From Micromonospora sp. FIMYZ51 (GTDB taxonomy: Bacteria; Actinomycetota; Actinomycetes; Mycobacteriales; Micromonosporaceae), in assembly GCF_038246755.1 (NCBI RefSeq), contig NZ_CP134706.1:6513501-6577500 (forward strand): a stretch of DNA of 64,000 nucleotides. Direction: 5' to 3'. Below, piece by piece: positions 9,457 to 26,705 of the stretch. The position numbers and the translations under genes are program-made. How positions within the stretch are numbered: position 1 is the first letter of the stretch; each line of letters opens with the position of its first letter. The notes beneath the pieces are model-generated. The model worked only from the letters and a program-made list of their open reading frames with translations, was not told the DNA's origin and ran no database searches.

Positions 9457-9542
9457 TCCTTTCGGGGTTCGTTAAGGCTCCTTTATGGAATTCCGGCTTA
9501 GCGTCTCGCCATCACCGCTGGATCGAGTCGCCCGGAGTCCCC

Positions 9543-10361
9543 ATGCGCAGAAAGATCACCTATCCACTGGCAACCCTCGGCCTGGTCGCCACGAGCCTGG
9601 CGGTGCCGTCCCCCGCCCAGGCCCACGGATACGTGTCCAACCCGCCCAGCCGGCAGGCGCTGTGCGCCGCCGGTACGGTCCGGGACTGTGGCCCGATCCA
9701 GTTCGAGCCACAGAGTGTCGAGGCGCCGAAGGGTTCCCAGCGCTGCGACGGCGGGGTCGGGCAGTGGTCGGTGCTCTCCGACGAATCCCGCAACTGGCCG
9801 GCCCGGAACGTGGGCAGCTCGGTGACCTTCACCTGGGTGCTGACCGCCCGGCATCGGACCGCCGACTGGCAGTACTTCATCGACGGCACCAGGATCGCCA
9901 CCTTCGACGGTGGGAACGCCCAGCCGGACGCGACCGTGTCCCACACCATCAACCTGAGCAAGTTCCCGGGTCGGCAGCGGCTGCTCGCGGTCTGGAACAT
10001 CGGCGACACCCCGATGGCCTTCTACAACTGCGTCGACCTGAACGTCAGCGGTGGCGGCGCCCCGCCGGCCGCAGCTCCGCCCGCCGAACCGCCCGCCGCC
10101 CCGCCCGCCGAAGCACCGCCCGCCGAGCCGCCCGCCGCCCCGCCGGCTGCGGCACCGCCCGCTGCCGCACCGCCGGCCGCACCGCCCGCCGCAGAGCCGC
10201 CACCGGCCGGCGACGGCGCCGCCTGGGCAGCCGGCGTCAGCTACCGGACCGGCGACGTGGTGACCTACCAGGGCAAGCGCTACCAGTGCCGGCAGGGCCA
10301 CACCTCGCTGCACAGCTGGGAGCCCTCGATCTACACCCTCGCGTTGTGGCTTCCGCTGTGA
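9543..10361 (+). CDS. Secreted AA10 lytic polysaccharide monooxygenase with C-terminal chitin-binding module
   Basis: The 272-aa precursor has a signal peptide ending PAQA, so the mature protein begins with His (about residue 28, HGYVSNPPSRQ). This is the copper 'histidine brace' of AA10 enzymes; the second ligand is probably the His in TARHRTADW (about 104). The catalytic domain ends near NCVDLNV. A roughly 40-residue Pro/Ala/Glu linker follows, then a CBM5/12-like module with AAWAAGVSYRTGDVVTYQGK, YQCRQGHTS and a Trp-rich end. It should oxidatively cleave crystalline chitin outside the cell. The ATG at 9543 starts the signal peptide. It overlaps the DUF305 gene by 4 nt. Confidence 0.94.
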   Translation: MRRKITYPLATLGLVATSLAVPSPAQAHGYVSNPPSRQALCAAGTVRDCGPIQFEPQSVEAPKGSQRCDGGVGQWSVLSDESRNWPARNVGSSVTFTWVLTARHRTADWQYFIDGTRIATFDGGNAQPDATVSHTINLSKFPGRQRLLAVWNIGDTPMAFYNCVDLNVSGGGAPPAAAPPAEPPAAPPAEAPPAEPPAAPPAAAPPAAAPPAAPPAAEPPPAGDGAAWAAGVSYRTGDVVTYQGKRYQCRQGHTSLHSWEPSIYTLALWLPL

Positions 10362-10960
10362 GGCGCCGGCTGGTAGCTGCCGTCCTGCTCGCGCCGTTCC
10401 TGCTCGGCGCGTGCAGCACGCCCGACGCGGAGTCCCGCCCGGCCGCCGGTGACCCGGTGGGCTCCGAGACGGTCGCCGAGATCAAGGCGAGCGAGGACTA
10501 CAACGACACCGACGTGATGTTCCTCCAGATGTTCGTCCATCACCAGCGGCAGGGCCTACAGATGACCGCCACTGCGGCAGACCGGGCGCAGGACCCCGAG
10601 TTGCAGACGCTGGCCCGCGCGGTGCAGGCCACCGAGCAGGACGAACTGACGATGATCGAGGGTTGGCTCGAAGACTGGGGCAAGCCCACCGAGGTCGACA
10701 CCGCACCCAACCTGCATGCCGATCATGGTGGGCTGCCCGGCACCGGCCCGGCCGAGATCGCGGCGTTGACGACGGTGCCGGACGCGGAGTTCGACACCAC
10801 GTTCCTGAGCCTCTTCCTGGCCCATCAGCACAACGCGATGGAGCTGGCCAACCTCGTCAAGGACGGCGGTAAGAACGCCGACACCAAGGCCTTCGGCGAG
10901 CGAGTGCGAGCTTCCCGGCAGGGCGAGATCCAACAGATGCTGAAACTCATGAACAAGTAG
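10358..10960 (+). CDS. DUF305 family lipoprotein
   Basis: The 200-aa precursor has a lipobox (FLLGAC) after a short hydrophobic stretch, so it should be lipid-anchored outside the membrane. The rest is a DUF305 ferritin-like helical domain with the paired signatures FLQMFVHHQRQGLQM and FLSLFLAHQHNAMELA and closing RASRQGEIQQM. DUF305 proteins are often His/Met-rich and suspected of metal binding. The start GTG overlaps the LPMO stop (GTGA); coupling to a copper enzyme suggests, without proof, a role in copper supply. GTG 10346 is an alternative start. Confidence 0.88.
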   Translation: MRRRLVAAVLLAPFLLGACSTPDAESRPAAGDPVGSETVAEIKASEDYNDTDVMFLQMFVHHQRQGLQMTATAADRAQDPELQTLARAVQATEQDELTMIEGWLEDWGKPTEVDTAPNLHADHGGLPGTGPAEIAALTTVPDAEFDTTFLSLFLAHQHNAMELANLVKDGGKNADTKAFGERVRASRQGEIQQMLKLMNK

Positions 10961-10964
10961 CGGC

Positions 10965-11374
10965 CTACTCTGCCGGCTCGCGGGATTCCGGCACTTCGGG
11001 CGAGGGCTCGGGCGGGGCGGCCCGGCGGAGCAGGGCATTCAACCCGGCCCGCCGGGCCACCACGGTCAACCGGTCCCCGGCCGCGATCGGCTGACGCCGC
11101 TCCGGCGTCCAGTCGTACCGCTGGCCCGGCCGGGCATGCGCGAGCAGACGCACGCTGCCCGTCCGACTGACCGTGCCGAGCGGACGACCCTCCAGGGCCG
11201 AACCAGCGGCCACCGCGATCTCGGTGACCAGCAGGGCGTGCCGGCCAACCGGAATGGTGGCGATCACCGCCCGGTCCAACAGCGCGGCGGCGAACGACGG
11301 CGCGGCCAGATAGGAGACGCTACGCGAGGTGCCGATGCCGAAGGCCCGCTGCACCCGCTCGGCGAAGTCACCGT
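10965..11374 (-). pseudogene. Truncated 3' copy of the TrkA/RCK channel gene
   Basis: The segment repeats the last part (about residues 455-575) of the intact channel protein at 21750-23519: DFAERVQRAFGIGTSRSVSY through GLNALLRR. Protein identity is complete except one Thr/Ala change, and the extreme C-terminal tails differ (EPSPEVPESREPAE here). Upstream of 11374 the homology stops abruptly, so there is no Rossmann domain or membrane part. It is a remnant left at the left edge of the genomic island. An in-frame ATG at 11399 exists, but the resulting short protein is unlikely to be functional. Confidence 0.9.
11014..11374 (+). repeat. Left copy of the 361-bp direct repeat flanking the island
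   Basis: Positions 11014-11374 match 21796-22156 at a constant offset of 10782 nt with a single difference (T at 11174, C at 21956). Both edges are sharp. Recombination between the copies would delete the island and leave one intact channel gene carrying the left-hand C-terminal tail. Confidence 0.93.
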
Positions 11375-11492
11375 GACTGGCACTCGATGTTTGCCCCACC
11401 GCGCCACTCCGACGTCAACACCATCCACCAACAGGCGCACGGATTCGGATTCGCTTGCGGCTGATTCCACCGAACATCATCGGCGTCGCTGG

Positions 11493-11516
11493 TGACAGCA
11501 GCCATGACAGCAACAC
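11493..11516 (+). repeat. Tandem TGAC motif, copy 1
   Basis: TGACAGCAGCCA is followed directly by TGACAGCAACAC, a 12-bp period. Copies with the same geometry and orientation lie at 12637, 14350 and 15494. It sits between the left island edge and the first toxin-antitoxin module. The rest of 11375-11624 shows no gene. Confidence 0.7.
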
Positions 11517-11624
11517 CCACGCACGCCGGGACATACGGCGAATCTGATGTCCCAGGCCATCACCGGTGGAGGAGCGGCGAGCCAGCCGGGAGCTCCACGC
11601 CGCCAGGGCACCGATCTGGACGGC

Positions 11625-11865
11625 TTACGAGTAGACGTCCTTGCGATGCCCGACCGCGTGGATGGTCAACTCGTCACCGTCGAGGCGGTAGAGGACCCGA
11701 TAGTCACCGACACGCAGACGCCGCCCGGATCCGTCGCGCATCTCGGTCGAGCTCTGTGGCTCAGGGTCGGAAACCAGGCCGAGGATCGCGCTCAGGACGG
11801 CCAGGAACGTTGCGGGGCTGCTTGTGTAGCCAGACCAGCACATCCCGGTCGATCTGAACCTTCAC
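11625..11865 (-). pseudogene. RelE/ParE-type toxin, frameshifted
   Basis: A GTG at 11865 overlaps the antitoxin stop (GTGA) and begins VKVQIDRDVLVWLHKQP, a RelE-like N terminus, but that frame stops soon after. The RelE core continues in the next frame: FLAVLSAILGLVSDPEP, then RRLRVGDYRVLYRLDGDEL and HAVGHRKDVYS. The frames join near 11810-11825 in a CACAAGCAGCCCCGCAACG stretch, so a single-base indel explains the break. The intact protein would be a ribosome-dependent mRNA interferase of about 80 aa. As read, it is inactive. Confidence 0.82.
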
Positions 11866-12161
11866 GCCGCCGCACCGCCGGCCCGGTCGGCCAGCAGCGC
11901 CTCCACCTCACGAGGATCGACCCCGAGTGACTCCAGAGCCGCCGACAGCGGCACGAACTGGCCCTCGGCACGGGAACGAGCGATCACCGCAGCGTCCCTG
12001 CGGTCCCGGAACGCCTCGATCTCCTCCCACTCGTCAATGCCCACCAGCACGGCCACCGGCCGCTCGTACTTCGTGATGATCACCGGCTCCCCGGTGCGCT
12101 CAACCCCGTCCAGCACCCGACCCGCGCCATCGCGAAACTCCCGCAGCGTAATCCTCACCAT
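11862..12161 (-). CDS. Phd/YefM-type antitoxin
   Basis: The 99-aa protein has the Phd/YefM fold: VRITLREFRDGAGRVLDGV, then GEPVIITKYERPVAVLVGIDEWEEIEA. The C-terminal half would wrap the RelE toxin. ATG 12161 is chosen over an upstream in-frame codon because the family begins at this point. The downstream toxin overlaps by 4 nt but is frameshifted, so the antitoxin may now be an orphan repressor or a protective antitoxin. Confidence 0.9.
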   Translation of the reverse strand: MVRITLREFRDGAGRVLDGVERTGEPVIITKYERPVAVLVGIDEWEEIEAFRDRRDAAVIARSRAEGQFVPLSAALESLGVDPREVEALLADRAGGAAA

Positions 12162-12767
12162 GCACGAGCTGTACCACGCGGTACCGTATAGCTCAGGGGG
12201 CAACGGGCAGCATCAGCTCCGAGACGCCATCCAGGCTCTGCCACCGAAGCAGCCACCGGGCTAAAAGTTGCTTCACCTAATCAAGCAGTGAGCCAGCCGG
12301 ATCAAGGGGGTCGACCAAGATCCGACTAGCTCAAAACTGCTCTACAGGATTCAAGTACGGCCCGGCAGAGCCGGGCCGCGCGCACGCGCTACGGCCTACG
12401 GCCCCGCGCGCACGCCCACCAACACCAGGCCGGCCACCACCGAGGGCTGACCGAGTCGGCGCCGAGGCCGTGACGATCGCTCAACCACGGAGCCAACAAT
12501 ACGGTTCCGGCAATCGACGCCGCACCGCTACGCGGCACGCCACCGCAACTCCTGCCCCAGCATGCGCCAGCGCCAAGAAACGAGGCGCACCACCCTTGCA
12601 GCAGCCATCAATCTATGCGCATGTGATGCACATGCTTGACGGCAACCCTGACGGCAACGCAGACCAACCGCCAACGACCCGTAGGACCAACCGACACGCT
12701 CCGCATACGCGGACGTCCCCGCGCCGCAGCCGCACAACACACATTACTGGGACAGTTCGCCGCCGTT
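12162..12767. repeat. Intergenic region with repeat R1 and tandem TGAC motif, copy 2
   Basis: No gene is credible here. From about 12340 to 12660 the sequence resembles 15190-15520 in the same orientation (diverged, with small gaps). Shared marks are CTGCTCTAC, a perfect hairpin CGGCCCGGC-AGA-GCCGGGCCG near 12358-12378, CCGCGCGCACGCGC runs, an ATCGACGCCGC stretch, ATCTAT and the tandem TGACGGCAACCC/TGACGGCAACGC at 12637-12660. The hairpin has a terminator shape without a T-run. Confidence 0.65.
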
Positions 12768-13115
12768 TCACTTCGAGCGAAGGGCATAGGTTTCGATGTC
12801 ATCCAGGGCGTCCTGTGCAATTCCTCCGAACGCGGAGCTCTGAATCAAGTCGTGTAATACAGGCAGCACAGCCTGCCGACCAACTTCCCGGTGTATGCGA
12901 GCGAGGTGCCCCAGGCACGTGATTGCCAATGATCGCACCCGCATTTCCATGTCATCGTCTGCAACCACACCTAACAAGATACTTTCAACCCAAGCACGAT
13001 CCGGGTCATGGTATGTGAGGGACAGTAAAGCATCAGTCGCCTCCGCGAGACCACTACCATGAACGTCGGCGAGCATCGCTGCACGCCAGGCGGGGTCAGG
13101 TTGCGCTGGATCCAT
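12768..13115 (-). CDS. HEAT-repeat-like immunity protein
   Basis: The 115-aa protein is all-helical, with HEAT-like pairs such as AEATDALLSLTYHDPDRAWVE and EMRVRSLAITCLGHLARIH, and ends in an acidic DALDDIETYA. Its ATG overlaps the stop of the preceding toxin fragment (TGATG), the same junction seen for the terminal rhs toxin and its immunity gene. By context it should bind and neutralise that toxin in the cytoplasm. The gene is fully open although the toxin is detached from any delivery protein. Confidence 0.8.
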   Translation of the reverse strand: MDPAQPDPAWRAAMLADVHGSGLAEATDALLSLTYHDPDRAWVESILLGVVADDDMEMRVRSLAITCLGHLARIHREVGRQAVLPVLHDLIQSSAFGGIAQDALDDIETYALRSK

Positions 13116-13507
13116 CAACGGATGTTCCCCTTACGATCGACAAGCCCGCCTCGGCGTAACGCGTTCTGCATGTCAACATGCAGATCACCCCACGGTTTGA
13201 CATGGCCATGCCAAATGTTGTTTACCCCGCCGGCGCCGTCACACCCGCATGCTGCTTGGCGTGTCCGGTCGAGTACGACAATTCCACCGCTATCCCTATC
13301 AACTCCGACGCGCCTGGGCGACGTACCCTTTACCTGGACCGAATTCTCTAAGGCAGCCTGACCATTTGTCGGCTCAGCACTGTTCATTCCGCGCGAAGTG
13401 CCGCGAGCGGTGGCCCCGCGCTTTCCGCCAGCCTCGTAAATGTCTCCGCCGCAGTTATGCACCAATACCGGCGTGGTGCCGGCCACCACATAGTACGTGT
13501 GGGATTT
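13115..13507 (-). CDS. Displaced polymorphic-toxin C-terminal cassette (type 17-like)
   Basis: The frame opens just after a stop with HTYYVVAGTTPVLVHNC, the end of a Hint/pre-toxin region, and continues as a toxin domain of about 110 residues with VQVKGTSPRRVGVDRDSGG, WHGHVKPWGDLHVDMQNA and GLVDRKGNIR. From memory this resembles polymorphic toxin type 17; I could not check. No normal start codon with a ribosome site is seen (a GTG lies at 13489), so it is a silent displaced tip able to recombine with the rhs gene through the shared junction. The reading frame itself is intact. Confidence 0.72.
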   Translation of the reverse strand, partial: KSHTYYVVAGTTPVLVHNCGGDIYEAGGKRGATARGTSRGMNSAEPTNGQAALENSVQVKGTSPRRVGVDRDSGGIVVLDRTRQAACGCDGAGGVNNIWHGHVKPWGDLHVDMQNALRRGGLVDRKGNIR

Positions 13508-13560
13508 TCACCCCGTCACGCAATGCGACTTGAGTTCTCGCCTCATCGGCATGCCTCACA

Positions 13561-13800
13561 TCAGAGCCCACCATCTGGCAATTCCGGAGAGGTTAGGTAC
13601 TCCGTTGGCCCCTTCCCATCTTCCCAGAAAACCCAAAGGCGCATACATTTTGGGCAATGCAAAACAATTCTCGCCAACCCGAAGAGGTGGGAGCTATCGA
13701 GATCCACATCGAACTCACGACGAGACAGCAAGAGCAGGCTGTCGTCGGGATCGTCATCCCTTAGGATCGTCCCGCACACACAAATCATCTTGGCCACCAC
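13561..13800 (-). CDS. Zinc-ribbon-like immunity protein
   Basis: This small protein (79 aa from GTG 13800; GTG 13797 and ATG 13788 are alternatives) carries two Cys pairs, ICVCGT near the N terminus and HCPKCMRLW near residue 49, spaced like a zinc ribbon. Between them are acidic runs (RDDDPDDS, EFDVDLDSS). It begins on the last base of the stop of the tRNase-like toxin (TAGTG), so it is the probable cognate immunity gene. The frame is intact while the toxin is frameshifted. Confidence 0.72.
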   Translation of the reverse strand: MVAKMICVCGTILRDDDPDDSLLLLSRREFDVDLDSSHLFGLARIVLHCPKCMRLWVFWEDGKGPTEYLTSPELPDGGL

Positions 13801-14250
13801 TACCCGCCCATAAATTCCAGGCCACCGATCGGCTGCTTGCCCCAGCTTCCGATCATCCCATTGACTCTTCCCAGCGCATTGCCGAACTGGCCTGCCGACA
13901 GGCCCGTGCCGCTAAGGTCAACAATGACGCCACCCCCATTCACCTGGGAATGTTTCTTGGCAACATTGGTCAGGACGTTGTTGATGGATCGGCTTGTTGG
14001 CGAATAGACATCCCAGGCACACCATCCACCAGCAGATCGCTAGTCATTCCTCCTGATCTTGTGCCAACCGGATCACGAAGAACAACGTTACCTCCACGAG
14101 CCGCCAGGTGCTGCGCAGCCGCAACCTCAGATGCGGACGGATTCGCTGCCGACACTCGGAGAGATCCCAAATTTGGGCCAGCGATTACCCCTTCCCCACA
14201 GTTGTGTACGAGTACGGGGGTGTTGCCCGCGATCACATAGTACGTGTGGC
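13800..14250 (-). pseudogene. CdiA-CT-like nuclease toxin cassette, frameshifted
   Basis: The cassette begins with HTYYVIAGNTPVLVHNC, then ASEVAAAQHLAARGGNVVL and SGGMTSDLLVDGVP. There the frame is lost; the next frame continues DVYSPTSRSINNVLTNVA, HSQVNGGGVIVDLSGTGLS and ends GGLEFMGG. The order (SADLLV-like, DVYSPT, QVxGGGVxVDL) is that of the contact-dependent inhibition tRNA nuclease family. One missing base near 14013-14017 (GTGCCTGGGATG) accounts for the break. It lacks a start codon and a delivery domain as well. Confidence 0.8.
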
Positions 14251-14349
14251 ATGTTCGCGGGCCAGCACGGAGCTTAGCTGTTGGGACTGCGGATTTGACC
14301 TGCGGTTTTGTGGCAGCCTTCTGCCGGCGCCGATGCGCCCCAAGGAAGT

Positions 14350-14373
14350 TGACGGCTACCGTGACGGCAACCC
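14350..14373 (+). repeat. Tandem TGAC motif, copy 3
   Basis: TGACGGCTACCG is followed by TGACGGCAACCC (12-bp period). It lies between the displaced toxin cassettes and the second toxin-antitoxin module, exactly 1144 nt before copy 4. Copies 1 and 2 are also 1144 nt apart. Confidence 0.7.
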
Positions 14374-14440
14374 GGAGAGACGGCCACGCACCGCAGGCAC
14401 CGACGGCCGTGTGCACTCAACCACCAGGTTTACTGTTCGC

Positions 14441-14446
14441 TATACT
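14441..14446 (+). promoter_or_regulatory. Candidate -10 box for the RelE/XRE module
   Basis: TATACT lies 6 nt before the GTG at 14453, so the message would be leaderless or nearly so. No clear -35 hexamer is seen. Leaderless starts are common in actinobacteria. Confidence 0.4.
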
Positions 14447-14452
14447 CATCGG

Positions 14453-14820
14453 GTGGCAACCGGCGAGTGGGAGATGCATCTCGTAGACGAGGTAAGGGAC
14501 TGGATCGACAGCCTTGATCCAGTAGCCCATGCACGTGTCGTGCAGGCCCTCGACCTGCTCGCCGAGGCGCCGGTCCAGGGCTCGGCCGACCGCTGGTCGA
14601 CACGATCCACGGCTCGACGATCGCCAACCTCAAGGAGCTACGCCCCGGCAGCGTACGCATCCTGTTCGCGTTCGACCCCTGGCGTTGCAGCATCCTGCTC
14701 GTCGCCGGCGACAAGGCCGGACGCTGGAACCAGTGGTACACCGAAGCCATCCCGCTGGCCGAGCTCCGCTACGAGACGTACCTGAAAGAACGCACCGAGG
14801 AAGAAGGCGGCACGCCATGA
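14453..14820 (+). pseudogene. RelE/HigB-like toxin, frameshifted
   Basis: The N-terminal frame from GTG 14453 reads VATGEWEMHLVDEVRDWIDS then ARVVQALDLLAEA. The C-terminal frame reads GRPLVDTIHGSTIANLKEL, RPGSVRILFAFDPWRCSILL, GDKAGRWNQWY and AELRYETYLKER, the usual core of RelE/HigB toxins paired with an XRE antitoxin. The two frames join around 14565-14580 (a base lost or two gained). As read, the toxin would be truncated after the first helices. It overlaps the antitoxin by 4 nt (ATGA). Confidence 0.82.
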
Positions 14821-15134
14821 GCAGCTACACGCGGTGGAGCGACATCCGCAGCGACCACGTCGAGCGGGCCGGCGGCCAGGAAGCGGTCGACGCAGGCAAA
14901 CAGGAACTGCTCGCGACGATCGTCGGGCACCGGCTCGCCGAGATCCGCCGCACCCGAGGACTGACCCAGCAGCAGGTCGCCGAACGCATGGGCGTGACCA
15001 AAGGACGCGTCTCCCAGATCGAACAGGGCAAAATCTCCGGCCAAGACGTCCTCGCCCGCTACGCCGCCGCCATCGGCGGACGCCTCCACCAGGCCATCTA
15101 CTTCGACGACGGCAACATCGCCGCCATCGCATAA
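14817..15134 (+). CDS. XRE-family antitoxin (HigA-like)
   Basis: The 105-aa protein has a Cro/C1 helix-turn-helix, RLAEIRRTRGLTQQQVAERM then GVTKGRVSQIEQGKI, and a short C-terminal part with ARYAAAIGGRL. It should repress its own operon and bind the RelE-type toxin. Its ATG overlaps the toxin stop. The antitoxin is intact while the toxin is frameshifted. Confidence 0.9.
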   Translation: MSSYTRWSDIRSDHVERAGGQEAVDAGKQELLATIVGHRLAEIRRTRGLTQQQVAERMGVTKGRVSQIEQGKISGQDVLARYAAAIGGRLHQAIYFDDGNIAAIA

Positions 15135-15644
15135 CGGGAGCGTTCGGATCCCCGGGAGCAGTTAACCCGGAACAGGCTGGTCCAAATCTGCTCTACATAA
15201 TCAAGAGCGGCCCGGCTGACGCCGGGCCGCGCGCACGCGCTACAGCCGTCCCGGCCCCGCGCGCACGCGCCCACGCAAAAGACCACCCGAACCCGCCAGA
15301 CGCAGCCAGCCACCGGCGCGGCAGCAAGCAGTCATCGAGACACCAGGCCGCGACGATCCCTTCACCGAGCAAGCGCCGCCATGGCTTCCGGGGATCGACG
15401 CCGCGACGCTTCGCGCCGCGCCACCGGACGTCCTACCCTCATCGTCAAGGTAGGACGGATTACATCTATACATGTATATGCATGATCACCGATTGACAGC
15501 ATCGCTGACAGCAACCCCGACGAACAGCCATGACCACCAGCGCACGACGGAGTGGCACCAATACGCTTGGTAGTAGCGCCACTCCGCCTGCAATTGCGCT
15601 ATCGATCACCGCACGCAAGGCAGTCTTGTGCCTTCTGTTGTCCG
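15135..15644. repeat. Intergenic region with repeat R2 and tandem TGAC motif, copy 4
   Basis: No gene is credible here. About 15190-15520 is the second, diverged copy of R1 (12340-12660), with the hairpin CGGCCCGGC-TGAC-GCCGGGCCG near 15209-15230. The tandem TGACAGCATCGC/TGACAGCAACCC lies at 15494-15517. Around 15460 the sequence turns AT-rich (ATACATGTATATGCATG). The last 100 nt before the immunity gene stop show nothing clear. Confidence 0.6.
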
Positions 15645-15947
15645 TTAGCCGACCGCCTCATCGCCAATCGCGCGAAGGACATCCGCAAGCCAGACAAGCC
15701 CGTAGCCAAGCACCCTTGATTCATCCTCCAGCATCCCGGAGAGGTTTTCCCACGACTCGGAGATTTGCCCGATCGTAAGGTCACGTGGCTCGTTATACAC
15801 GTCGTATCGCGCCGACTCCGGAATCGACCAGAAGTAATCTTTCGCGATCGAAAGCTCCGCGCCCGACCTTCCAGCTACGTGGGACACGAGCAGCTCAAAC
15901 ACCTGTCGCAACTGGTCTACGGACACCCGCACCACTGGTTCTGACAT
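15645..15947 (-). CDS. Immunity protein for the terminal Rhs toxin
   Basis: The 100-aa acidic protein starts at ATG 15947, overlapping the rhs stop (TGATG). It contains RVSVDQLRQVFELLVSHV, YFWSIPESARYDVYNEP, TIGQISESWENL and ends in a helix GYGLVWLADVLRAIG. Proteins of this kind occur directly after polymorphic toxins in actinobacteria. Position and junction make it the cognate immunity gene; no enzyme motif is visible. Confidence 0.8.
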   Translation of the reverse strand: MSEPVVRVSVDQLRQVFELLVSHVAGRSGAELSIAKDYFWSIPESARYDVYNEPRDLTIGQISESWENLSGMLEDESRVLGYGLVWLADVLRAIGDEAVG

Positions 15948-18900
15948 CAGCACATCCCGCCTAGCCTTTTGAGATTATCGACCTGCTTGTTGAAGCCGTC
16001 GATCTCTTTCTGTAGGTGCTTGATTCGACCGTCGATAATACGCTGCCGGATCTCTGGCGTCGGCGCATTCTTGAGACGACCTTCGTTGTCGAAGGCGTCT
16101 GGGTTAGCGCGGTAGGCATCCAACTTCGCCTGGTGTTCAGCGGAGCGCGCTTGCAGCGACCTCAGCGACCTTTGCTGCTCGGGTGTAAGCCCGCCATCGT
16201 TGTGCACGAGCACCGGCGTGTTGCCGGCCAGCACATAGTACGTGTGGATGTCTGCGACGGTGAGGTTGTAGGCGGTGCCCTGCTGGACGGTGTTCCAGTC
16301 GACTCCCGTGACGGTGAGGGTCGCCCCGTTGGCCGTGTGCAGCAGGTCGCCAGGGTCGAGATCCTGACTGTCCTGCCACTGCTGGTCGGTCACGTTCCAG
16401 AACGGGTGGTCCTCCGTGGTGGTGACTTCCCCGCCACTCACCTTCAGATCGACGAGCTGGTCCTCGTGGACCCACAGGTGGGTCACCTCTCGGGCGCCTT
16501 CCTCCCCCGTTTCGGGGTCGGTGGCCAGGACAACGTCGCCGACCTCGACATCCTCGATCGGCTTCTTGCTGCCGTCCGCCATCACGACTTCGGTGTCACC
16601 GCTGAAGCTGCGGAAGCCACAGGCACCCCCAGCACCACCACCACGGGCCGCCGATCGCGCTCCGGCACCTGCCATACCCACCGACGTGCGCAGCCCTGCC
16701 CCACCGGCAAGGCCGAAGGCCCCTGCACCGAGGGCTGGCAGGAGAACCGCACCACCTGCGCCCAGCACACCGCCGACGGCCCCACCGAGGACGGCTTCGC
16801 CAGCGAGCTGCAAGAAGCTTTCCTCGTCGGCGTCCAGGCTGTTGGTGGTCAATGAGGCGACATAGCCGCCGACGAACCCGCCGATCGCTGCGCACCCGAC
16901 GGCACCCACACCGAAGCTGCCGGCGGTGCAGGCTCCGCCGACGATGACACCGGCGGCGACACCGGCCACCGCGCCCACTGCCCCGGCGTTACGGCACCAG
17001 AAGCTGGACTGGCACTCCCGCTGCTTGCGTTCTCTTTCGGCGCGTTCGTTGCTGGCCTGCCGGAACGCCTCGCGCTGCTGCTGACAGCTGGATCCACAAG
17101 CTGGGGGAACGTACTTCTTGATGATCTTGATTTCGTTCTTGCCGGAGGAAGTGGTGGTGACGTGAGCGCGGTCCCCGGTGTCCTCGTTGTTCTCCGTGAA
17201 GTACAGGCCGGTGGGATCGGCATTGTCGATCGGGTTGTTCCCGCCGTACTGGTACCCGTTGTACTGAGCGGGGCTGTCCGCGACCAGGACCGGGTCCACC
17301 GAGATGAACCGGCCGAGCGTCTGGTCGTACTGTCGGGCACCGACGTTGGTCAGACCGGTGGGGTCGATGTCCCCACCGACGAAGCCCTTGTTGTTCACCC
17401 AAACCGGGTTCGCGCCGCGCGGCGCACCGTACGGAGTTTGACGGCGGATCGAAACCGCCTGCGTGCCGGCGTTCACCGCGACCTGCTGGGTGCCCTGATG
17501 ATCGTTGAAGAGCCAGGTCAGGTCCGTGCTCGCCGAACCGCCCGTGCGGGATGCGCAGACGTTGCCGGCGAAGCTGTAGTAGCGGGTGCCGGTGTTGACG
17601 CTGCCTTCCCGGCGGATCTCCTGCCCCGGCAGGTAGAGAGTCGTGCCACCGCTGTCCCGACGGATGATCCTGGTGCCGTTCGGGTCGTAGATGTTGGTCT
17701 CGATGGTCTGGCCGCCAGCTGAGACGGTGGTCAGCTTGCCCTCGGCGTCCCAGCCCAGGGTCTGACTGTTGGTGCCGGTGCCACAGTCGTTCGCGGCGGT
17801 GCCGGTCGGCCGGCAGATGGTGTTCCCGGCGCCGTCGTAGGCGTAGGTGTTGACGACGTTGCTCTGGCCGGGCGCCTCGGTCGTCATCGCGGTGACGGCG
17901 TGTGGGCGTACCGCGTCCTGGCCGCCGGTCGGCACCGCGTAGGTGCGGGTGGTGTCGCCACCGGCGGTGTGGCTGGTCTCGGTCAGGCGGGAGTTGGTGG
18001 TGTTGAAGGTCCAGTCGTGCCAGTACGGCGCCGGACCCCCCAGGTTGGCCACGCTGGGATCGGTCTGGCAGTCCACTCCGGACTTCGGGGTCCACGCCGT
18101 GCTGAGCCGGCCCAGCGGATCCTGCCGGAAGCACTGGGTTTCGGCCTGGCCGATCTGCGGCTTCTCCTCGATCGAGGTGATGTTGCCGCTGTCGTCGTAG
18201 GTGTAGTTGCGGTCGGAGACGGTGCCGACGGTGGTTTCCCGCTGCACGGTGGTGCGGTCGATGCGACGGGTGGCTTCGTCGCGGTAGACGGTGTCCTGAG
18301 TCCACACGCCGCCGGGCATCTTGTAGATCGAGCCGTTGCGTTCGCCGTAGGCGGTGTAGCTGGCGGTGGCCATCGTGCCGGCTGCTCCGGTGAGGCTGGT
18401 GTCCAGCCGGACGGGCATTCCGGTGGTGTCGTCGTATTCGGTGGTTACCTGCTCGGTGACCAGCCCACCACCGGACGGGTAGGAAATCGACGTCGGGGCA
18501 CCGGTCGCCGCCGAATAACCGTAGGCGTAGATGTAGGTGCCGCTCAGGCCGGTCTCGTTGGTGGGGATGACGTAGTTGACACCCTTGGGCTGGTAGCGGC
18601 CGTCGAAGCTGCGCACCTGCCACCGGTAGGCGTTGGTGCTGCCGGCCGGGTCGTAGCGGATCGCCTGAGTGAGCTGGCCCTTGAAGCCGCTCTGCCCGGA
18701 GTAGAGCGTGTCGTACTTCCACTCGGCACGCAGCGCTCCGGTGGCGGAGTCGTCCCGCAGCTCCTTCTTCCGACCCAGCTCGTCGTAGCCGTACCAGAGC
18801 ACCTCACCGCGGGCGTCGGTGGTCTTGACCAGGTCGTTCTCGTCGTTGAAGGTGCTGGTCGTCGTCCCCTTGTCGGGGTCGGTCGTACGCCACAGGCGGC

Positions 18901-19981
18901 CCTTGGCGTCGTACTCGTTGACCCACCGGTTTCCCGCCGGGTCGACGGTCCTGACCAACTGGCCCTTGCGGTTGTAGACGTACTGGGTCTCCTGGTAAGC
19001 CCCATCGACACCAGCCGTGGTGGTGTGCTGGCGCAGCCCCACGACGCGGCCCTCGCTGTCGGTCACCGTCGTGGTCGGGGTGCCGCCCTTCGGTGGGGTG
19101 ACCTTGGTCAGGTCGCCCTCGTGGTCGGTGACGGTACGCCACTTCTCCACCAGGTTCGTTTCTCCGTCCCCGGCGAGGAAGATCGCGTTCGTGGGGCGAG
19201 ACGCCCGGTCGAACACCGTCTTGGAGACGGCGGGGAGAGACCATTCCGGCTCCCACCACAACGTGCCGGAAGGTGCCCCGGGCTCGGCGTGTGCCCCATA
19301 GGCGGTCGCGGCGCGGCCGAGACTGTCGTAGATCGTGTCGGTGACCACCCGGTTTCCAGTGCCGTCCACCGCCGGACTCTGGGTCTGCCGGGAGCGCAAC
19401 AACCCGTCGAGGATCTCGTACGAGCTGACGTAATTGCCGTTCGCGTTCAGCGCCTGCGTCCTGACGAACGGATAGGCGTTGCGGCTCGCGGCGAAGGTGT
19501 AGGTGTACTGCGCGGATGGGGTGTTCGGGTTGGCCGCCTTGGTCCAGCCCAGCCCCCACACCTTGCTGACGCGGCCGAGTGCGTCGTACTCGACGTCCGA
19601 GACGATCCTGTTGTTGGGATCAGTGGCCTTGACGGTCGAGCCCCAGTAGGGGTTGGTTTCCACGGACGAGGTCCAGCTGAACGGCGCAGGGCCCGTCGTG
19701 GTCACCTTCGTGACCGGGCCCCCCACCGCCGGCGTATAGGCGGTCTTGGTGACGTTGCCCTTGATGTCGGTCGCGCTAACCGGCCGACCGGCGGAGTCAT
19801 AGTTGCCCTGTGACACCACCTGCCACACCGTGCCGGTGCTGGGGGCCCAGTCCTTGAGCTGCTCGCTCTTGGTCACCAACCCGAACGTCGGCGCGGTGTC
19901 GACGCTGCTGGCCCCGTCGTAATAGGTCCGTGCGTCGGAAATGACGTCATCGACGGAGGTCGGATTGGTGCCTGCGTCCGT
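15947..19981 (-). pseudogene. Rhs/YD-repeat polymorphic toxin, 3' part (core, Hint, toxin tip)
   Basis: An open frame of 1344 codons follows a stop at 19982-19984 and has no credible start of its own. It begins TDAGTNPTSVDDVISDARTY and holds many YD repeats (YDSAGRPVSATD, YDALGRVSKVWG, YDAKGRLWRTTD). The Rhs cap is GRFISVDPVLVADSPAQYNG with NADPTGLYF. A Gly/Ala-rich hydrophobic region follows, then a Hint domain (FSGDTEVVMADGSKKPIEDV, TTEDHPFWNV) ending HTYYVLAGNTPVLVHN, and a helical tip of about 85 aa (LDAYRANPDAFDNEGRLKNA, RQRIIDGRIKHLQKEIDG), which from memory resembles polymorphic toxin type 28. The upstream half is in another frame after an internal deletion, so secretion and expression are probably lost. 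Confidence 0.87.
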
Positions 19982-21101
19982 TCAGGTTCATCATCGCGTT
20001 TTCCGACCGCCAACACAGGTCACCGGTGTCCCTGGTGTTGTTCGCGCCGCCCTTCTTCCGGTCCTCCGCACACGGCACATACCGCCGCTCGATGAACCCC
20101 GGCGAGTAGTCGAAACCCTCACCGATCCACGACGGCTGGTTGTTCGTCACCTCGGATCGGCCATCCACGGCTGCCGACGAGTACGCCAGCGCGACCGATG
20201 GCTCCGGGCCAGTCGCCGGCGGCGTACGCAGCGGATAGTTCCACGAGAAGTCGCCGGAGGACCCGCCCGACGACCAGGTCGACGACGGTGCCAGGCTGGT
20301 GGCGGTGAAGTCACCGTCCGCGCCCGAGCCCGCCGCCGCCAAGGCGAGGAGGGAACCGCTGGGCTGGGATGTCGTCTCACCCGACAGGCGTGCCCGCTCC
20401 ACGGATGAGGTCGCGGTGGGGATGGCGGTCACCTCGGCGGTGGCCACTCCCGCACCGAGGTCATTCGTGGTGGGAAGTGGCACCGATCGGCATTCCGGTG
20501 CATCGGGCGTGGACAACGCGCATTCCGGGACCTGCCACAGCCGCAGCCGCGACGCCCAGGACCCACCCACCGCGTGCCGGAACGAACTGTAATCCACCGA
20601 CACTTTTGCCTTGCCGGCAGCGACCCCGACCGGCGTCGAGACTTTCAGCATCAGGCCGTCACGCCATCTGGCCGGCACCGATTCCCGATCCAACACCTGC
20701 ACATCCACGCCGGTGACGCGCGCATCGGCCGTACCGCCGCCGCGGGCGACCCAGACCGGCAGAGCACCCGCCCTGACTCCCCGGCCAGCCCCGCTCGACG
20801 AATCGAGCCTCACCCGGGCGCTACTCGCCGCCGGCCACGCCGGCTTCGGCACCGGTGTCTCCTGCATCAGCTTCTGCGCCCACGCCCGACCCGACACTGG
20901 GCCACCGTGCGAATCGAGCTTCTCCACTAGCGGCCGCGCCGGCTCCGCCCTCGGGACAGCGGCCTCGGCCGGTACGCCGACCAGCAGCGACGCTGCCACG
21001 GGGACGACCGTCAGGCCGGCGATCCACCGGCGCAGGCGGCCAGCGCGATAAGGATTCCGTCGTGGCTGCCGCAGAACGTGGGCAGGTTGTGCAGATATCA
21101 T
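19947..21101 (-). pseudogene. Rhs polymorphic toxin, 5' part (signal peptide and N-terminal region)
   Basis: The ATG at 21101 has a good GGGAGA ribosome site and begins a long signal sequence ([20 protein letters not shown], cleavage near AEA). The rest is the standard N-terminal part of actinobacterial Rhs proteins: SVALAYSSAAVDGRSEVTNN, QPSWIGEGFDYSPGFIERRY, CAEDRKKGG and TGDLCWRSENAMMNL. It then runs directly into sequence that in the family lies several hundred residues further on, in a different frame, and terminates at LNGRRHQSDLRR. The junction near 19985 marks a deletion of perhaps 2 kb (family-length estimate). Confidence 0.85.
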
Positions 21102-21154
21102 GCTTTCTCCCGGTAAGACAGCCGCACGGAGTATCGGGTTCACCTGAATGTCGG

Positions 21155-21466
21155 CCTGCCCTCGTGGCTCGCACCACCAGGTCCACATCGGAGAGCACGT
21201 TCGGGTAGGTCAGTGAGTCCTCCGACAGCGTCGGTACCGGCAACGCCCCTGGCCACGACAACGTGACCGTCCGCCCGGCCCGGCAGCGCGGTCACCTCGG
21301 CGAACTCTGTTCGAGAGTCGTCCACCACCACCGGCTGCCCGCATTAGATCGCCAGCGCACTCGCCTCGACCTCCGTGCTGGCGACCTCTGGGCACTCTGG
21401 TGCCGCCGCAGCCACCGGCTCGGGTGCTGGCACACCGATCACCCCGACAGCCACCACAGCCGTCAT
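21155..21466 (-). pseudogene. Collapsed remnant of a LamG/Rhs-associated scaffold gene
   Basis: A signal-peptide-like start (MTAVVAVGVIGVPAPEPVAA) is followed by an in-frame TAA at 21344-21346, then [20 protein letters not shown], and after a frame change [20 protein letters not shown] and [17 protein letters not shown]. These are separate conserved blocks of the long secreted protein that usually precedes rhs genes in actinobacteria, pressed together by deletions. Only about 310 bp remain of a gene normally near 3 kb. Confidence 0.72.
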
Positions 21467-21749
21467 CCCAGCGGATAACCCACGCTGCCACCGAACGCCC
21501 ACGACACGCACCCCCGACAGAGAGCAAGCAGTGGCAGAGACAGTAGGGCTACGGCCTCAGTTGAGTTGCCCCGTGCCGAAGGTGACGACGCAGCCACCCA
21601 CAGCTAATGATCAAAATTGATCGATCTGAAGCTAGTTCGACGTCGATGAATCACTCAAGGTGATCAAGAACGGTTCGATGACTTTCTATATGTGATCTGG
21701 GGCACACTTTCCCCCAAGCTCTGTCGCCACTGACCGACGCGCGGTTGGT
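21467..21749. other. Non-coding right end of the island
   Basis: No gene is seen. The part from about 21600 is clearly AT-richer than the chromosome (TGATCAAAATTGATCGATC, TTTCTATATGTGATC). It ends just before the stop of the channel gene. I see no integrase attachment core or tRNA here. Confidence 0.5.
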
Positions 21750-23519
21750 TCAGCTGCGAGGTTCGGGCAGCACCGGATCAGGGTCGGGCGGGGGTGGGGC
21801 GGCCCGGCGGAGCAGGGCATTCAACCCGGCCCGCCGGGCCACCACGGTCAACCGGTCCCCGGCCGCGATCGGCTGACGCCGCTCCGGCGTCCAGTCGTAC
21901 CGCTGGCCCGGCCGGGCATGCGCGAGCAGACGCACGCTGCCCGTCCGACTGACCGCGCCGAGCGGACGACCCTCCAGGGCCGAACCAGCGGCCACCGCGA
22001 TCTCGGTGACCAGCAGGGCGTGCCGGCCAACCGGAATGGTGGCGATCACCGCCCGGTCCAACAGCGCGGCGGCGAACGACGGCGCGGCCAGATAGGAGAC
22101 GCTACGCGAGGTGCCGATGCCGAAGGCCCGCTGCACCCGCTCGGCGAAGTCACCGTCGAAGAGTCGCAGCACCACCCGCAGTTCGTCGTTGATGGTCCGA
22201 CCGTTGAGCGCCGCCCGCAGGTTGGCCCCGTCATCGGTGGAGACCACGACCAGCGCCTGGCAGGTGGCCACCGAGGCGGCGCGTAACGTCTCCTCCTGCG
22301 CCGCGTCCCCCACCACCAGCGGTACGCCCAGCCGCCGGGCCAGCCCGGCACCCCGGGCGTCCCGGTTCTTGTCGATCGCCACCACCTCGACGCCGAAGTC
22401 GTTGAGCTGGGCCATCACCCGGGTGCCGATGTTGCCCAGCCCCACCACCACGACGTGCCCGGAGCGCTCGGGCAGGATCCGCCCGGTGTGCAGGGCCAGC
22501 CGGGCGTTTACCACGCCGTCGACCACCACCGCCGTGATCAACGGGATCAACGCCAGCCCGGCGAGGTTGAGCAGCACCTGCATGACCTGTTCGGCACCGC
22601 CCCTGTCGGTGTCCGGATCCTGCCCGGTGAGGGTGGTGACCAGGGTCAGGTACACCGCGTCGGCCAGATTGACCTCGGCCGCGTAGGCGTACAGCCCGCC
22701 CAGCGCGCCCACCACGGCGAGCAGCAGGATCACCGCGATGCCGATCTTGCGGGTGGCGAAGCTGCGGATCGCCCGCAGCACCAGCGCCAGCGGTCGGCGA
22801 CGTCGCCGGGCGCGGGCCAGCCGACGGGCGGCCAACTCGGCGCCGGCCGGTCGGCCCGCCGCCTCGGCGAGCACCACGTCCGCCTCGCGATCGTTCGCCG
22901 GCAGCACCAGGTCCTGCTGGGCATCGCGGGTGTCGGCCACCCCGCAGACGACCTCGCTGGGGCGTACGTCGTCGCGGCGGGCCAGATAGAGGGTGCGTCC
23001 GCCGTGCCGGAAGTGGGTGGGCGCCACCTCGCCGAGCGCGGCGGCGACGAAGGCCGGCGCGGCCATCGACGTGTCCGAGAGGACCGACGAGTCCGGAAAG
23101 ATCTGCCGGACCCCGTTGGCCAGGCCGGTGTTGAACATCCGCACCACCAGTCGCAGCCGGGGCTCGACCTCCTGGGCGCAGAGCGCGGCGTGCATGTTGC
23201 CCACGTCGTCCTGGTGCAGCAGGGCCAACCCCGCCGCCCCGGCCAGCCCGGCCCGGCGGAAGGCGAACTCGTCCAGCCGGTCGGTCCGGATCACCTCGAC
23301 GCCGGGCAGGTCACGGCCGTCCGGCCCGGGAGAGCGCCGACGCTCGGGCACGATCAGCGTGATCCGCAGTCGCCCGGCCTGCGTCTCACCGGCGCGCAGC
23401 GCCCGCACCACCCAGTAGGCGAGTGGATCCTGCCCGCAGATGACGTAGTGCGCCCGCTCACCGTTGGACCGCAGCCGGCGGCCGGCCCGCAGGGCCCGAT
23501 CGAGCAGCGGCTCCGCCAT
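21750..23519 (-). CDS. Ion channel/RCK protein with two TrkA domains and divergent pore
   Basis: The 589-aa protein has an N-terminal Rossmann/RCK region (HYVICGQDPLAYWVVRALRAG), two transmembrane helices (about 258-281 and 313-337) around a pore segment, and a second TrkA-N domain (VVVVGLGNIGTRVMAQL at about 356-372, with the NAD acid in VVAIDKNRDARGA) plus TrkA-C. The pore reads TLVTTLTGQDPD where potassium channels have TVGYGD, so selectivity may differ, as in CASTOR/POLLUX-like channels. ATG 23519 is preferred; upstream frame is unrelated. Codons about 455-575 lie in the 361-bp repeat, so the 3' end may have been supplied by the island. Confidence 0.9.
   Translation of the reverse strand: MAEPLLDRALRAGRRLRSNGERAHYVICGQDPLAYWVVRALRAGETQAGRLRITLIVPERRRSPGPDGRDLPGVEVIRTDRLDEFAFRRAGLAGAAGLALLHQDDVGNMHAALCAQEVEPRLRLVVRMFNTGLANGVRQIFPDSSVLSDTSMAAPAFVAAALGEVAPTHFRHGGRTLYLARRDDVRPSEVVCGVADTRDAQQDLVLPANDREADVVLAEAAGRPAGAELAARRLARARRRRRPLALVLRAIRSFATRKIGIAVILLLAVVGALGGLYAYAAEVNLADAVYLTLVTTLTGQDPDTDRGGAEQVMQVLLNLAGLALIPLITAVVVDGVVNARLALHTGRILPERSGHVVVVGLGNIGTRVMAQLNDFGVEVVAIDKNRDARGAGLARRLGVPLVVGDAAQEETLRAASVATCQALVVVSTDDGANLRAALNGRTINDELRVVLRLFDGDFAERVQRAFGIGTSRSVSYLAAPSFAAALLDRAVIATIPVGRHALLVTEIAVAAGSALEGRPLGAVSRTGSVRLLAHARPGQRYDWTPERRQPIAAGDRLTVVARRAGLNALLRRAAPPPPDPDPVLPEPRS
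21796..22156 (+). repeat. Right copy of the 361-bp direct repeat flanking the island
   Basis: This copy lies inside the intact channel gene. It matches 11014-11374 except at one base (21956). Homology ends at 22156, where the intact gene continues and the left copy switches to island sequence. Confidence 0.93.
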
Positions 23520-23587
23520 GCCCGCATGGTAATCACCGGGTCGTACCTCCGCAGTCCCCCAATGATCATGAAAGTCGCTCGTCCGGC

Positions 23588-24190: not shown

Positions 24191-25717
24191 GTGGCGCTGT
24201 CGCAGGTGGTCGGCCGGCTCATCGGCGTACGCCCACACCAGGTGAACCCGGGCGGCGGTGGCGTGGCCCGGGTGCCGCAGCCGGTCACCGCAGTGGTCGT
24301 CGGCGGCGGGATCGCCGGCATGTCCGCGGCCGTGGTCCTCGCCGAACGGGGTGTCGAGGTGACCGTGCTGGAGGCCGAGCCGACGCTCGGCGGCCGACTC
24401 GGTGCCTGGCCGGAGCGGCTCGGGGACGGCAGCAGCCAGCTCAACGAGCACGGCTTTCACGCGTTCTTCCGGCAGTACTACAACTGGCGGAACATCCTGC
24501 GCCGGATCGATCCGGCGCTGCGCTTCCTGCGCCCGGTGCCGGGTTACCCGGTGCTCAGCGCCCGATGGCCGACCGAGGAGTTCGGGCGGCTGCCACCCGC
24601 ACCACCGGCGAACCTGCTCACCCTGCTGGCCCGCAGCCCCAGCATGCGGCTGCGCGACCTGCGCGGCATGGACCGGGACGCCGCCCTGCCGCTGCTGGCC
24701 TACCATCCGGTACGCACCTACGCCGAGTTCGACCACGCCACCGCCGACGAGTTGCTCACCTCGCTCCGGCTGCCGGACCGGGCCCGGGCGATGCTCTTCG
24801 AGGTCTTCTCCCACTCGTTCTTCAACCACGAGGCGGAGATGTCGGCCGCCGAGATGATCGCCCAGTTCCACTTCTATCTACTCGGCAATCCGGAAGGGCT
24901 GGCCTTCGACTGCCCCGACGAGGATTACGCCACCGCCATCTGGGCACCGCTGACCCGGCACGTCGAGCGGCACGGCGGTCGGGTGGTCACCGGTGCCCCG
25001 GCGACCGCGTTGCACCGGGACCCGGCCGGCTGGCGGGTGGCGACCGCCGAGCGGGCGTACCGGGCCGGGCACGTCGTGCTCGCGGTCGACCCGCCGGCAC
25101 TCGCCGCGCTGGTCGCGGCCTCACCCGGGCTGGCCGACACCGCGCCGGAACTGGTGGCGGCGATGCCCGGGTACGGTCGGCCCGGCCCGCCGTACGCGGT
25201 GGCCCGTTACTGGTGTGACGGGGACGTCGACCCCGAGCGCGCGATCTTCAGCGGGGTGTCCCGCCAGGCGACCCTGGACTCGGTGACGCTGTACCACCGG
25301 CTGGAGCACGAGTCGCGGCGCTGGGCGGAGCGCACCGGCGGCTCGGTCGTCGAACTGCACGCGTACGCCTGCGAGCCGGGCGTGCCCGCGACGGAGCTGG
25401 CCGAACGGATGCGCGCCGAGCTGATCGGGCTCTGGCCGGAGGCGGGCCGGCTGCGGGTGCGTGAACTACGCGCCCGGGTGGAGGCGAAGGCCCCGGCCTT
25501 CACCCCGGGCAGCCACGCGCGGCGGCCCGGGGTACGCACCGAGGTCGACGGGCTCTACCTGGCCGGCGACGGGATCCGCACCGACTTCCCCAGCGCCCTG
25601 ATGGAGCGGGCGGCGGCCACCGGCATCCTCGCGGCGAACCACATCCTGCGCTCGGCGGGTGCCGCCACCGAACCGCTGCGTTCCATCCGGCCGCGCGGCC
25701 TGCTCGCCCGCCGCTGA
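24191..25717 (+). CDS. FAD-dependent carotenoid desaturase/cyclase-type oxidoreductase
   Basis: The 508-aa flavoprotein has the dinucleotide-binding start VVVGGGIAGMSAAVVLAERG and the GGRLGAW motif of the phytoene-desaturase superfamily. ELNEHG-like sequence continuing as HGFHAFFRQYYNWRNILRR is the mark of CrtU/CruE-like proteins (isorenieratene or chlorobactene synthases). It ends with the FAD motif DGLYLAGDGIRTDFPSALME. A carotenoid ring-modifying role is inferred; no other carotenoid gene is nearby. GTG 24191 is used although the first 30 residues are not typical. Confidence 0.8.
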   Translation: MALSQVVGRLIGVRPHQVNPGGGGVARVPQPVTAVVVGGGIAGMSAAVVLAERGVEVTVLEAEPTLGGRLGAWPERLGDGSSQLNEHGFHAFFRQYYNWRNILRRIDPALRFLRPVPGYPVLSARWPTEEFGRLPPAPPANLLTLLARSPSMRLRDLRGMDRDAALPLLAYHPVRTYAEFDHATADELLTSLRLPDRARAMLFEVFSHSFFNHEAEMSAAEMIAQFHFYLLGNPEGLAFDCPDEDYATAIWAPLTRHVERHGGRVVTGAPATALHRDPAGWRVATAERAYRAGHVVLAVDPPALAALVAASPGLADTAPELVAAMPGYGRPGPPYAVARYWCDGDVDPERAIFSGVSRQATLDSVTLYHRLEHESRRWAERTGGSVVELHAYACEPGVPATELAERMRAELIGLWPEAGRLRVRELRARVEAKAPAFTPGSHARRPGVRTEVDGLYLAGDGIRTDFPSALMERAAATGILAANHILRSAGAATEPLRSIRPRGLLARR

Positions 25718-26645: not shown

Positions 26646-26649
26646 GGCC

Positions 26650-26693: not shown

Positions 26694-26705
26694 AAGGAGA
26701 GCCCA

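Follow-up and report, generated by a model that had tools for sequence, protein, structure and literature searches.

We analysed a 64,000-nucleotide stretch of the Micromonospora sp. FIMYZ51 genome (hereafter the window; contig NZ_CP134706.1, positions 6,513,501 to 6,577,500), in which an rhs polymorphic toxin gene, two displaced rhs toxin tips and two toxin-antitoxin pairs lie between an intact and a truncated copy of an RCK channel gene. We consider it quite likely that, family-wide, integrative elements use the HTYYV codons of rhs/PT-HINT genes as their attachment (att) site and carry a silent toxin tip and immunity region beside attP, so that integration would re-arm the resident toxin in one step, older tips would form an ordered record of insertions, and mini-derivatives with toxin-antitoxin pairs would keep the arrays in place. 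For the window itself the likely reading has two layers, in which occupants of an insertion hotspot were stacked beside the channel gene and the island was built by core-specific integrative elements. The rhs-targeting, tip-swapping elements are apparently new, and the duplication of the channel gene end is in itself of modest interest.

A 16-bp core and a double arm motif at rhs toxin tips

Direct repeats in the window pointed to the rhs tips. The core is a 16-mer, CCACACGTACTATGTG, that codes for HTYYV, and both orphan tips of the window begin there. A double arm motif, TGACRGCAACNNNGACRGCAAC, is situated at 11493, 12637, 14350 and 15494; with at most one mismatch it occurs at seven places in the genome, the window's four included. 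Among 21 arm sites (one place being counted twice), the motif is then followed by an exact core in 15 and by a core with one mismatch in 2. The leaders upstream of the orphan cores belong to at least three sequence types, none of which is rhs.

The exact 16-mer is present in 81 of 160 genomes of the genus and in 145 of 354 genomes of the family, spread over 18 of 44 genera, and a reversed-pattern control gave 0 among the matches listed. Sixty distinct sites of the genus were classified, taken from the first match of 30 of the 81 genomes, 30 loci fetched otherwise, the loci L033 and L034, and the window. A double arm motif precedes the core by 111-133 bp at twenty of them, another 35 sites fall within open frames of 60 codons or more, and the remaining 5 show neither. 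For 20 sites from three other genera the corresponding numbers were 5, 15 and 0. Within 799 kb of channel-gene loci the arm pattern gave four matches, all of them in L034 and L037, both of which carry the core. The core sites are related, and hence no formal significance is given.

A less biased check was made on 30 PT-HINT loci (L301-L330), the best matches chosen by protein family. A recognisable end is present in 28 of them, HTYYV in 24 and the exact 16-mer in 16. The third core codon is TAC in all 24 and the fourth is TAT in 20 of the 24, while TAT makes up 96 of the 691 tyrosine codons of the same genes overall. An arm match lies within 1.6 kb downstream in 7 of the 16 genes with the exact 16-mer. 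It also lies downstream, about 1 kb away, in 2 of the 12 non-exact genes (L304 and L319), and these two matches may mean other core variants.

Complete elements in relatives end at the core

The element at locus L222 (genome G073) has cores at 367-382 and 8861-8876, 8,494 bp core to core. Between them lie genes for a helix-turn-helix regulator, a tyrosine integrase, an HTH_17 protein that is presumably excisionase-like, RepSA, an FtsK-like protein and GntR, together with a D4 element. One core is inside an intact rhs gene of 2,264 amino acids and the other precedes a displaced tip. The gene content is that of an actinomycete integrative and conjugative element (AICE): the integrase matches PF00589 (2.1e-29) and PF14659 (2.2e-08), the replication initiator RepSA matches PF20199 (1.7e-115), a single FtsK/SpoIIIE-type translocator matches PF01580 (1.1e-08), and att sites stand as direct repeats at both ends.

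A search of the genus with the L222 integrase returned 12 full or nearly full copies with 71-100% identity (the query included) and three partial copies with 69-91%, after which identity drops to 48% or less. In 9 of the 12 loci a core (0-1 mismatch) and an arm motif lie 1.8-2.0 kb from the integrase. Both cores are seen in 8 of the 12, with core-to-core lengths of 5.5, 8.4, 8.5, 8.5, 8.5, 8.6, 8.6 and 9.8 kb; L292 and L293 run off the contig.

Pairwise comparisons place the breakpoints at the core. When an orphan tip is aligned with the same tip in an open frame, the common DNA starts from core base 0 in five of six pairs and from -9 in the sixth, in which orphan tip 2 of the window is compared with G005 (an open rhs-type frame, 96% identical). 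Between two open frames the common DNA begins at -19 or further upstream, which is expected, their HINT ends being related. The element at L228 and an older element at L226, in two species, show 99% identity between the attL core and a point 48 bp beyond the attR core, apart from stretches of 2.9 and 1.5 kb present in L226 only, and their displaced tips and flanks differ. In L222/L294, L222/L291 and L295/L296 the backbone is 89-93% identical, and the first 1.0-1.2 kb after the core, with the tip and immunity region, is not common. The unit therefore runs from core to core and the tip is cargo. The L226 element also holds, at 8892-10136 (G113), a gene that we take to be an IS110-type transposase look-alike.

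These breakpoints bear on the possibility that homologous recombination at the conserved HINT end is the sole route by which tips change, as in Salmonella rhs orphans, with the 16-mer as a by-product of protein conservation. Salmonella orphan and main rhs sequences do recombine through homologous DNA according to the available part of PMC3967940, some open-frame pairs with the same tip share DNA from -19 or further upstream, and about 70 bp around the core is common to different rhs genes. However, the leaders upstream of the orphan cores are not rhs, the synonymous positions of the core are kept against codon bias, and one boundary of the AICE units is the core itself, the other lying no more than 48 bp from a core. 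We regard homologous exchange alone as improbable.

In the mechanism that we propose instead, integrative elements would recombine site-specifically at the 16-bp core in the HTYYV codons of rhs/PT-HINT genes, each bringing a promoterless toxin tip and an immunity region. On integration the resident rhs gene would gain the new tip by fusion, and the old tip would stay behind the element as an orphan. The full elements would be AICEs of the pSAM2 type, and the window would hold small derivatives in which a toxin-antitoxin pair replaces the backbone.

The array of the window

The main rhs frame of the window, 15947-19879, matches PF05593 and PF07591 and thus combines RHS repeats, a pretoxin HINT domain and a variable tip, as in Rhs polymorphic toxins. 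Read in the rhs sense, the rhs core is followed by the tip, a candidate immunity gene, a double motif with a D4 element, a toxin-antitoxin pair, a second double motif, a non-rhs leader of about 100 bp and an older tip. The mini-element from 14249 to 16247 measures 1,998 bp core to core and lacks an integrase. Each tip is followed by a gene that presumably confers immunity to it. We take the partner toxin of pair 1 to be RelE-like and pair 2 to be HigBA-like; the toxin partners of both pairs look frame-broken beside the frames of their relatives, of which intact ones exist. The rhs gene is likewise frame-broken and lacks about 1.8 kb of the rhs of L093 and L103. The array is probably a fossil.

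As the earlier note had observed, no integrase is visible: the nearest match to the tyrosine integrase family (PF00589) in a profile search of the genome lies about 210 kb or more from the window, and recombinase families gave 0 matches in the 20 window frames scanned, serine recombinases not having been searched genome-wide. In the scanned frames the window cassettes have no integrase, rep or FtsK genes of their own; without an AICE backbone and with a toxin-antitoxin pair between D4 and the arm motif, they are therefore filed as derivatives and not as AICEs.

Two other candidates were set aside. An arm-like match at 21223, where the rhs region starts, has up to three mismatches and was dropped, and a chromosomal-integron attC site was rejected for D4, since the motif misfits the attC core and the AICE contexts fit better. 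At L217 (G073:C1:5187501-5198500) four successive cassettes each contain D4 and the motif, with orphan tips in between; their cargo includes relatives of both toxin-antitoxin pairs of the window and, presumably, a helix-turn-helix gene and a GNAT-like pair.

The 361-bp repeat and the permease-channel hotspot

Positions 11014-11374 and 21796-22156 are the same at a constant offset of 10782 with a single mismatch (11174 T, 21956 C), and the edges are abrupt on both sides in either copy. A match of this length with one mismatch is far past chance. A genome-wide DNA search found exactly two copies in the 7.05-Mb genome. The right copy belongs to an intact channel gene with TrkA_N and TrkA_C; the left copy is the 3' end from about residue 463, truncated at its 5' side, which retains TrkA_C and ends in a proline-rich tail (tail A) unlike that of the right copy (tail B). 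The description in the earlier note thus stands on these points, as does its remark that the DNA in between is partly AT-richer: in 1-kb windows the GC content is 58-70% between the copies and mostly 70-75% outside. The interval contains a Phd/YefM antitoxin, a PT-HINT/RHS frame, a weak HEAT match and a helix-turn-helix gene that is antitoxin-like. The repeat could in principle be an assembly artefact, and the duplication is indeed found in one genome only; however, the copies differ by one base, their tails and flanks differ and the genome is one contig, which makes an artefact extremely improbable.

We searched the 160 genus genomes, one genome per species, with the left copy and its flanks (E <= 1e-60), scoring two candidates per genome. 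There were matches in 110, one of them (G060) in the flank only, and two matches on the repeated part were found only in the genome of the window itself. From the 110 matching genomes we took 56 channel-gene loci of about 20 kb each, mostly from the closest relatives. In these relatives an amino-acid permease gene on the plus strand converges, tail to tail, with the channel gene on the minus strand. Their stop codons are less than 300 bp apart in 31 loci (from an 83-bp overlap to a 142-bp gap), 352-1183 bp apart in 6 and 4.8-15.1 kb apart in 11; in 8 loci the permease is absent from the 20 kb. Every one of the 56 loci has exactly one channel 3' end. The compact loci are the empty sites with a single gene that the earlier note expected, and the pair of copies, whose presence in all relatives would have spoken against an insertion, is absent from every relative examined. 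Because the spacing varies, the junction is an insertion hotspot, with conserved flanking genes and variable content between them. Relative to the compact loci the extra DNA of the window runs from about 6815, and not from 11014 as formerly proposed, to 21750.

Two occupants share this space. The first, a block with two-component and LPMO genes, is a discrete unit that is 84-87% identical in four other species, in 20-kb loci without a channel match, and the truncated channel copy adjoins it with its stop codon. The second has its counterpart in Micromonospora endophytica (G001, L033), where a HigBA-like pair and an rhs gene lie between permease and channel, and where the right copy of the window is matched in the channel tail and some 200 bp downstream of it. 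In L093 and L103 a longer rhs gene adjoins the channel gene, the permease being inside the locus in L103 only. BLAST matches below 150 bp were left out of the comparisons of the window with these loci (below 120 bp in one other comparison). The main rhs segment of the window is 93% identical to L033, 87% to L034, 88% to L093 and 84% to L103, and pieces nearer the N terminus are 75-84% identical to relatives. In all, rhs DNA similar to that of the window (84-93% in the main segment) occupies the hotspot in 4 of 56 relatives' loci, and L046 has one short match of 75%. The identity roughly tracks species distance; therefore the rhs gene looks old and often lost here, not freshly foreign, and the former view that everything between the copies is foreign was too strong. 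At L037 (M. zingiberis, G003) a hotspot insert has, at 15088 and 15895, the rhs core and an arm-like match with three mismatches, and its rhs gene has no DNA-level similarity to that of the window.

The left tail looks like the type usual for the clade; by eye it is close to the tails of M. sonchi and M. qiuiae, which come nearest to the window in most of nine segments compared. The right tail is common to the rhs haplotype of M. endophytica. The proline-rich C terminus of the channel protein (21750-21795 and 10965-11013), which adjoins the hotspot, is strongly divergent across species.

At the inner seam, the window turns into channel sequence at 11374/11375, and the 6 bp CACCGT are common to both sources. 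Positions 11375-11438 are 95% identical to 12460-12523 of L033, where an open frame runs on leftwards. The microhomology and the interruption of the open frame at 11375 therefore argue for an illegitimate join and not for an attachment site. The flanks of the hotspot diverge as well. The permease end (5550-6800, mean z -0.76) and the channel end (21796-22045, mean z -1.36) are both more diverged from relatives than background predicts; L065, L067 and L069-L072 were excluded from this comparison as too distant. At the permease end the pair of the window and M. sonchi is the lowest of 780 pairs, and at the channel end the window takes part in 7 of the 8 lowest pairs. This divergence is likely to reflect import through the flanks, as read from the sequences. 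In M. endophytica (L033, 8134-10199) the permease region is 79% identical to the window, against 90-91% upstream, a possible recombination tract by the hotspot.

The earlier note had proposed that an integrative element with a specific end entered the channel gene and brought a replacement 3' end, which would make the 361-bp repeat an att pair. The geometry, the identical core, the tails that differ on the 3' side and the unrelated DNA on the other side agree with this. However, no tyrosine integrase lies within about 210 kb; neither an integrase nor a defined att end at 11375 was found, serine recombinases being checked in the scanned frames only; the inner edge falls within an open frame that continues in M. 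endophytica and shows a 6-bp microhomology join; the 11 of 56 loci with inserts of 4.8-15.1 kb beside the channel have no second channel 3' end; and tail B is not on all rhs carriers. An att pair in the channel gene is thus close to refuted, and we hold it to be highly improbable. The idea of a replacement 3' end fails for the channel gene and succeeds for the rhs gene, where the orphan tips start at the 16-mer core. Other origins were also rejected: a target of tRNA or Rfam type at the repeat (the search gave tRNA-Thr and msiK RNA at 28.3-28.7 kb and nothing else), an ancient duplication of the channel gene (one 3' end in 56 of 56 relatives' loci) and a transposon target-site duplication (tail B is a channel tail common to M. 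endophytica).

Alternatively, a circular DNA that held the rhs island together with part of the channel gene could have entered by a single homologous crossover of the Campbell type, leaving reciprocal hybrid copies. This would explain one identical core and two tails in one step, but it needs a donor piece that is 99.7% identical in the core and strongly different in the tail, and a separate closure of the circle at 11375. We consider it possible, though rather unlikely.

Exchange through homologous flanks, which the earlier note had named as its second option, is likely and fits better than an element entering the channel gene. In the stacking that we favour, a haplotype of permease, two-component/LPMO block and channel with tail A would have been joined to one of toxin-antitoxin/rhs island and channel with tail B, by homologous recombination in the flanks on one side and, on the opposite side, by a join at 11374/11375 through the 6-bp microhomology; or a larger first duplication may later have been trimmed by deletion. 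Either way the 361-bp overlap of the channel gene would be left behind. Homology-facilitated illegitimate recombination is an existing term.

Several points weigh against the two-layer reading. The window has no integrase and the best integrase relatives in its genome are 41-45% identical, and therefore its cassettes may be dead. Of its three cores, the one at 13502 is without an arm motif, and its outermost arm, at 11493, lacks a core; more widely, 4 of the 21 arm sites are without a following core, L230 has the integrase and arms without a core, L297 showed no far core within the sequence retrieved, and the exact 16-mer is missing from 12 of the 28 PT-HINT genes with a recognisable end. Integrase catalysis and excision are what we infer from the anatomy of the elements. 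For the stacking, the flank signal is modest and rapid evolution could explain it; the rhs carriers L034, L093 and L103 keep the usual tail type, which shows that tail B does not go with every rhs island; and the donor, direction and order of events are tentative, the comparison covering one genome per species.

Annotated features

The features are collected in Table 1. Further to the right, the window also has a tRNA-Thr(TGT) gene and an msiK RNA motif at 28281-28673, and a 19-bp tandem repeat at 25730-25910 within the open frame 25659-27260.

Table 1. Coordinates of the features of the hotspot and its occupants (positions of the window).
Feature	Positions	Strand	Basis
Amino-acid permease, left hotspot border (frame from upstream stop; AA_permease; stop 6812-6814)	5573-6814	+	Pfam
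First occupant: minus-strand gene, response regulator/histidine kinase, LPMO_10, DUF305	6838-10961	.	Pfam
RCK channel gene 3' end, truncated; tail type usual for the clade	10965-11374	-	
Left copy of 361-bp repeat	11014-11374	-	sequence comparison
Microhomology CACCGT (6 bp), inner seam	11369-11374	.	
64-bp fragment of open frame from M. endophytica island (95%)	11375-11438	.	
Double arm-like motif; att core side lost at seam	11493-11514	-	
Toxin-antitoxin pair 1: Phd/YefM antitoxin 11862-12161; partner frame appears broken	11622-12161	-	
D4 element (~330 bp), ends in double arm-like motif 12637-12658	12306-12658	+	
Immunity candidate for orphan tip 1, HEAT-like protein; HEAT_2 below Pfam cut-off	12768-13118	-	
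Orphan rhs toxin tip 1, starts at 16-mer core 13487-13502; adjoining arm motif not found	13115-13502	-	
Orphan rhs toxin tip 2 (decayed), with approximate left end; starts at 16-mer core 14234-14249	13900-14249	-	
Double arm-like motif of mini-element	14350-14371	-	
Toxin-antitoxin pair 2: helix-turn-helix antitoxin; toxin frame appears broken	14438-15134	+	
Second D4 element, arm-like motif 15494-15515	15159-15515	+	
Candidate immunity gene of current rhs tip; no Pfam match	15645-15944	-	
rhs gene: RHS repeats, PT-HINT, current tip	15947-19879	-	
16-mer core within rhs frame (putative attL)	16232-16247	-	
N-terminal rhs frame, without Pfam match; reading frame differs from that of 15947-19879	19947-21188	-	
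Channel tail and downstream stretch common to M. endophytica (G001)	21547-21795	-	
RCK channel gene, intact, TrkA_N/TrkA_C; start codon position putative	21750-23543	-	Pfam
Right copy of 361-bp repeat	21796-22156	-	sequence comparison

Relation to known systems

The sources cited here were available to us in part, and what is said of them refers to those parts. The complete elements resemble AICEs of the pSAM2 family in their tyrosine integrase, adjoining HTH_17 gene, RepSA, FtsK-like and GntR proteins and direct-repeat att cores; in contrast to these, the att core is here rhs/PT-HINT coding sequence and one end of the element is a toxin tip with its immunity region. In a survey of AICEs, those with tyrosine integrases are in their vast majority located in tRNA genes, the pSLS subfamily excepted, and some with serine integrases are located in protein-coding genes; the word "toxin" is absent from the text of the survey available (PMC3218068). 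A Streptomyces study names tRNA genes and rlmN as sites, and its decayed AICEs (DAICEs) resemble our derivatives in the loss of integrase and rep, the retained direct repeats and a possible mobilisation in cis (PMC9513070), whereas the derivatives in the window keep a toxin-antitoxin pair and a toxin tip.

With Rhs and other polymorphic toxins that have orphan C-terminal tip-immunity modules, the window shares RHS repeats, PT-HINT, a variable tip, and displaced tips with candidate immunity genes downstream. The change of rhs tips has been ascribed to homologous or unspecified recombination (PMC3967940, PMC3482391), while here it is ascribed to an exact 16-bp core; the available text of these two papers does not contain the word "integrase", and XerC/D recombinases beside polyimmunity loci are mentioned in PMC3482391. 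The PEST cassettes of mycobacterial prophages are also mobile toxin and immunity genes near an att end, but they are complete toxin cassettes (PMC10654092, PMC9934374), whereas here a promoterless tip would be fused to a resident toxin gene by integration. The hotspots without mobile elements described by Oliveira et al. 2017 (PMC5635113) likewise have variable DNA between conserved genes and recombination at the flanking core genes, and differ from the present locus with its two stacked occupants and a truncated border gene separating them. Literature searches, judged mostly from titles and the openings of abstracts, gave no report of an integrase attachment site inside rhs, and the available text of a Neisseria integrative and conjugative element paper (PMC7371117) contains nothing on such a site.

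If the proposed explanation is true, these elements would amount to a system that diversifies polymorphic toxins by site-specific recombination. With an att site inside the toxin gene and conjugative elements that bring tip and immunity together, gene transfer would be coupled to bacterial weaponry, and orphan arrays would be explained as an ordered stack of insertions. The 361-bp duplication would be the trace of two hotspot haplotypes meeting, and the 16-bp handle would predict which toxin genes are open to such elements.

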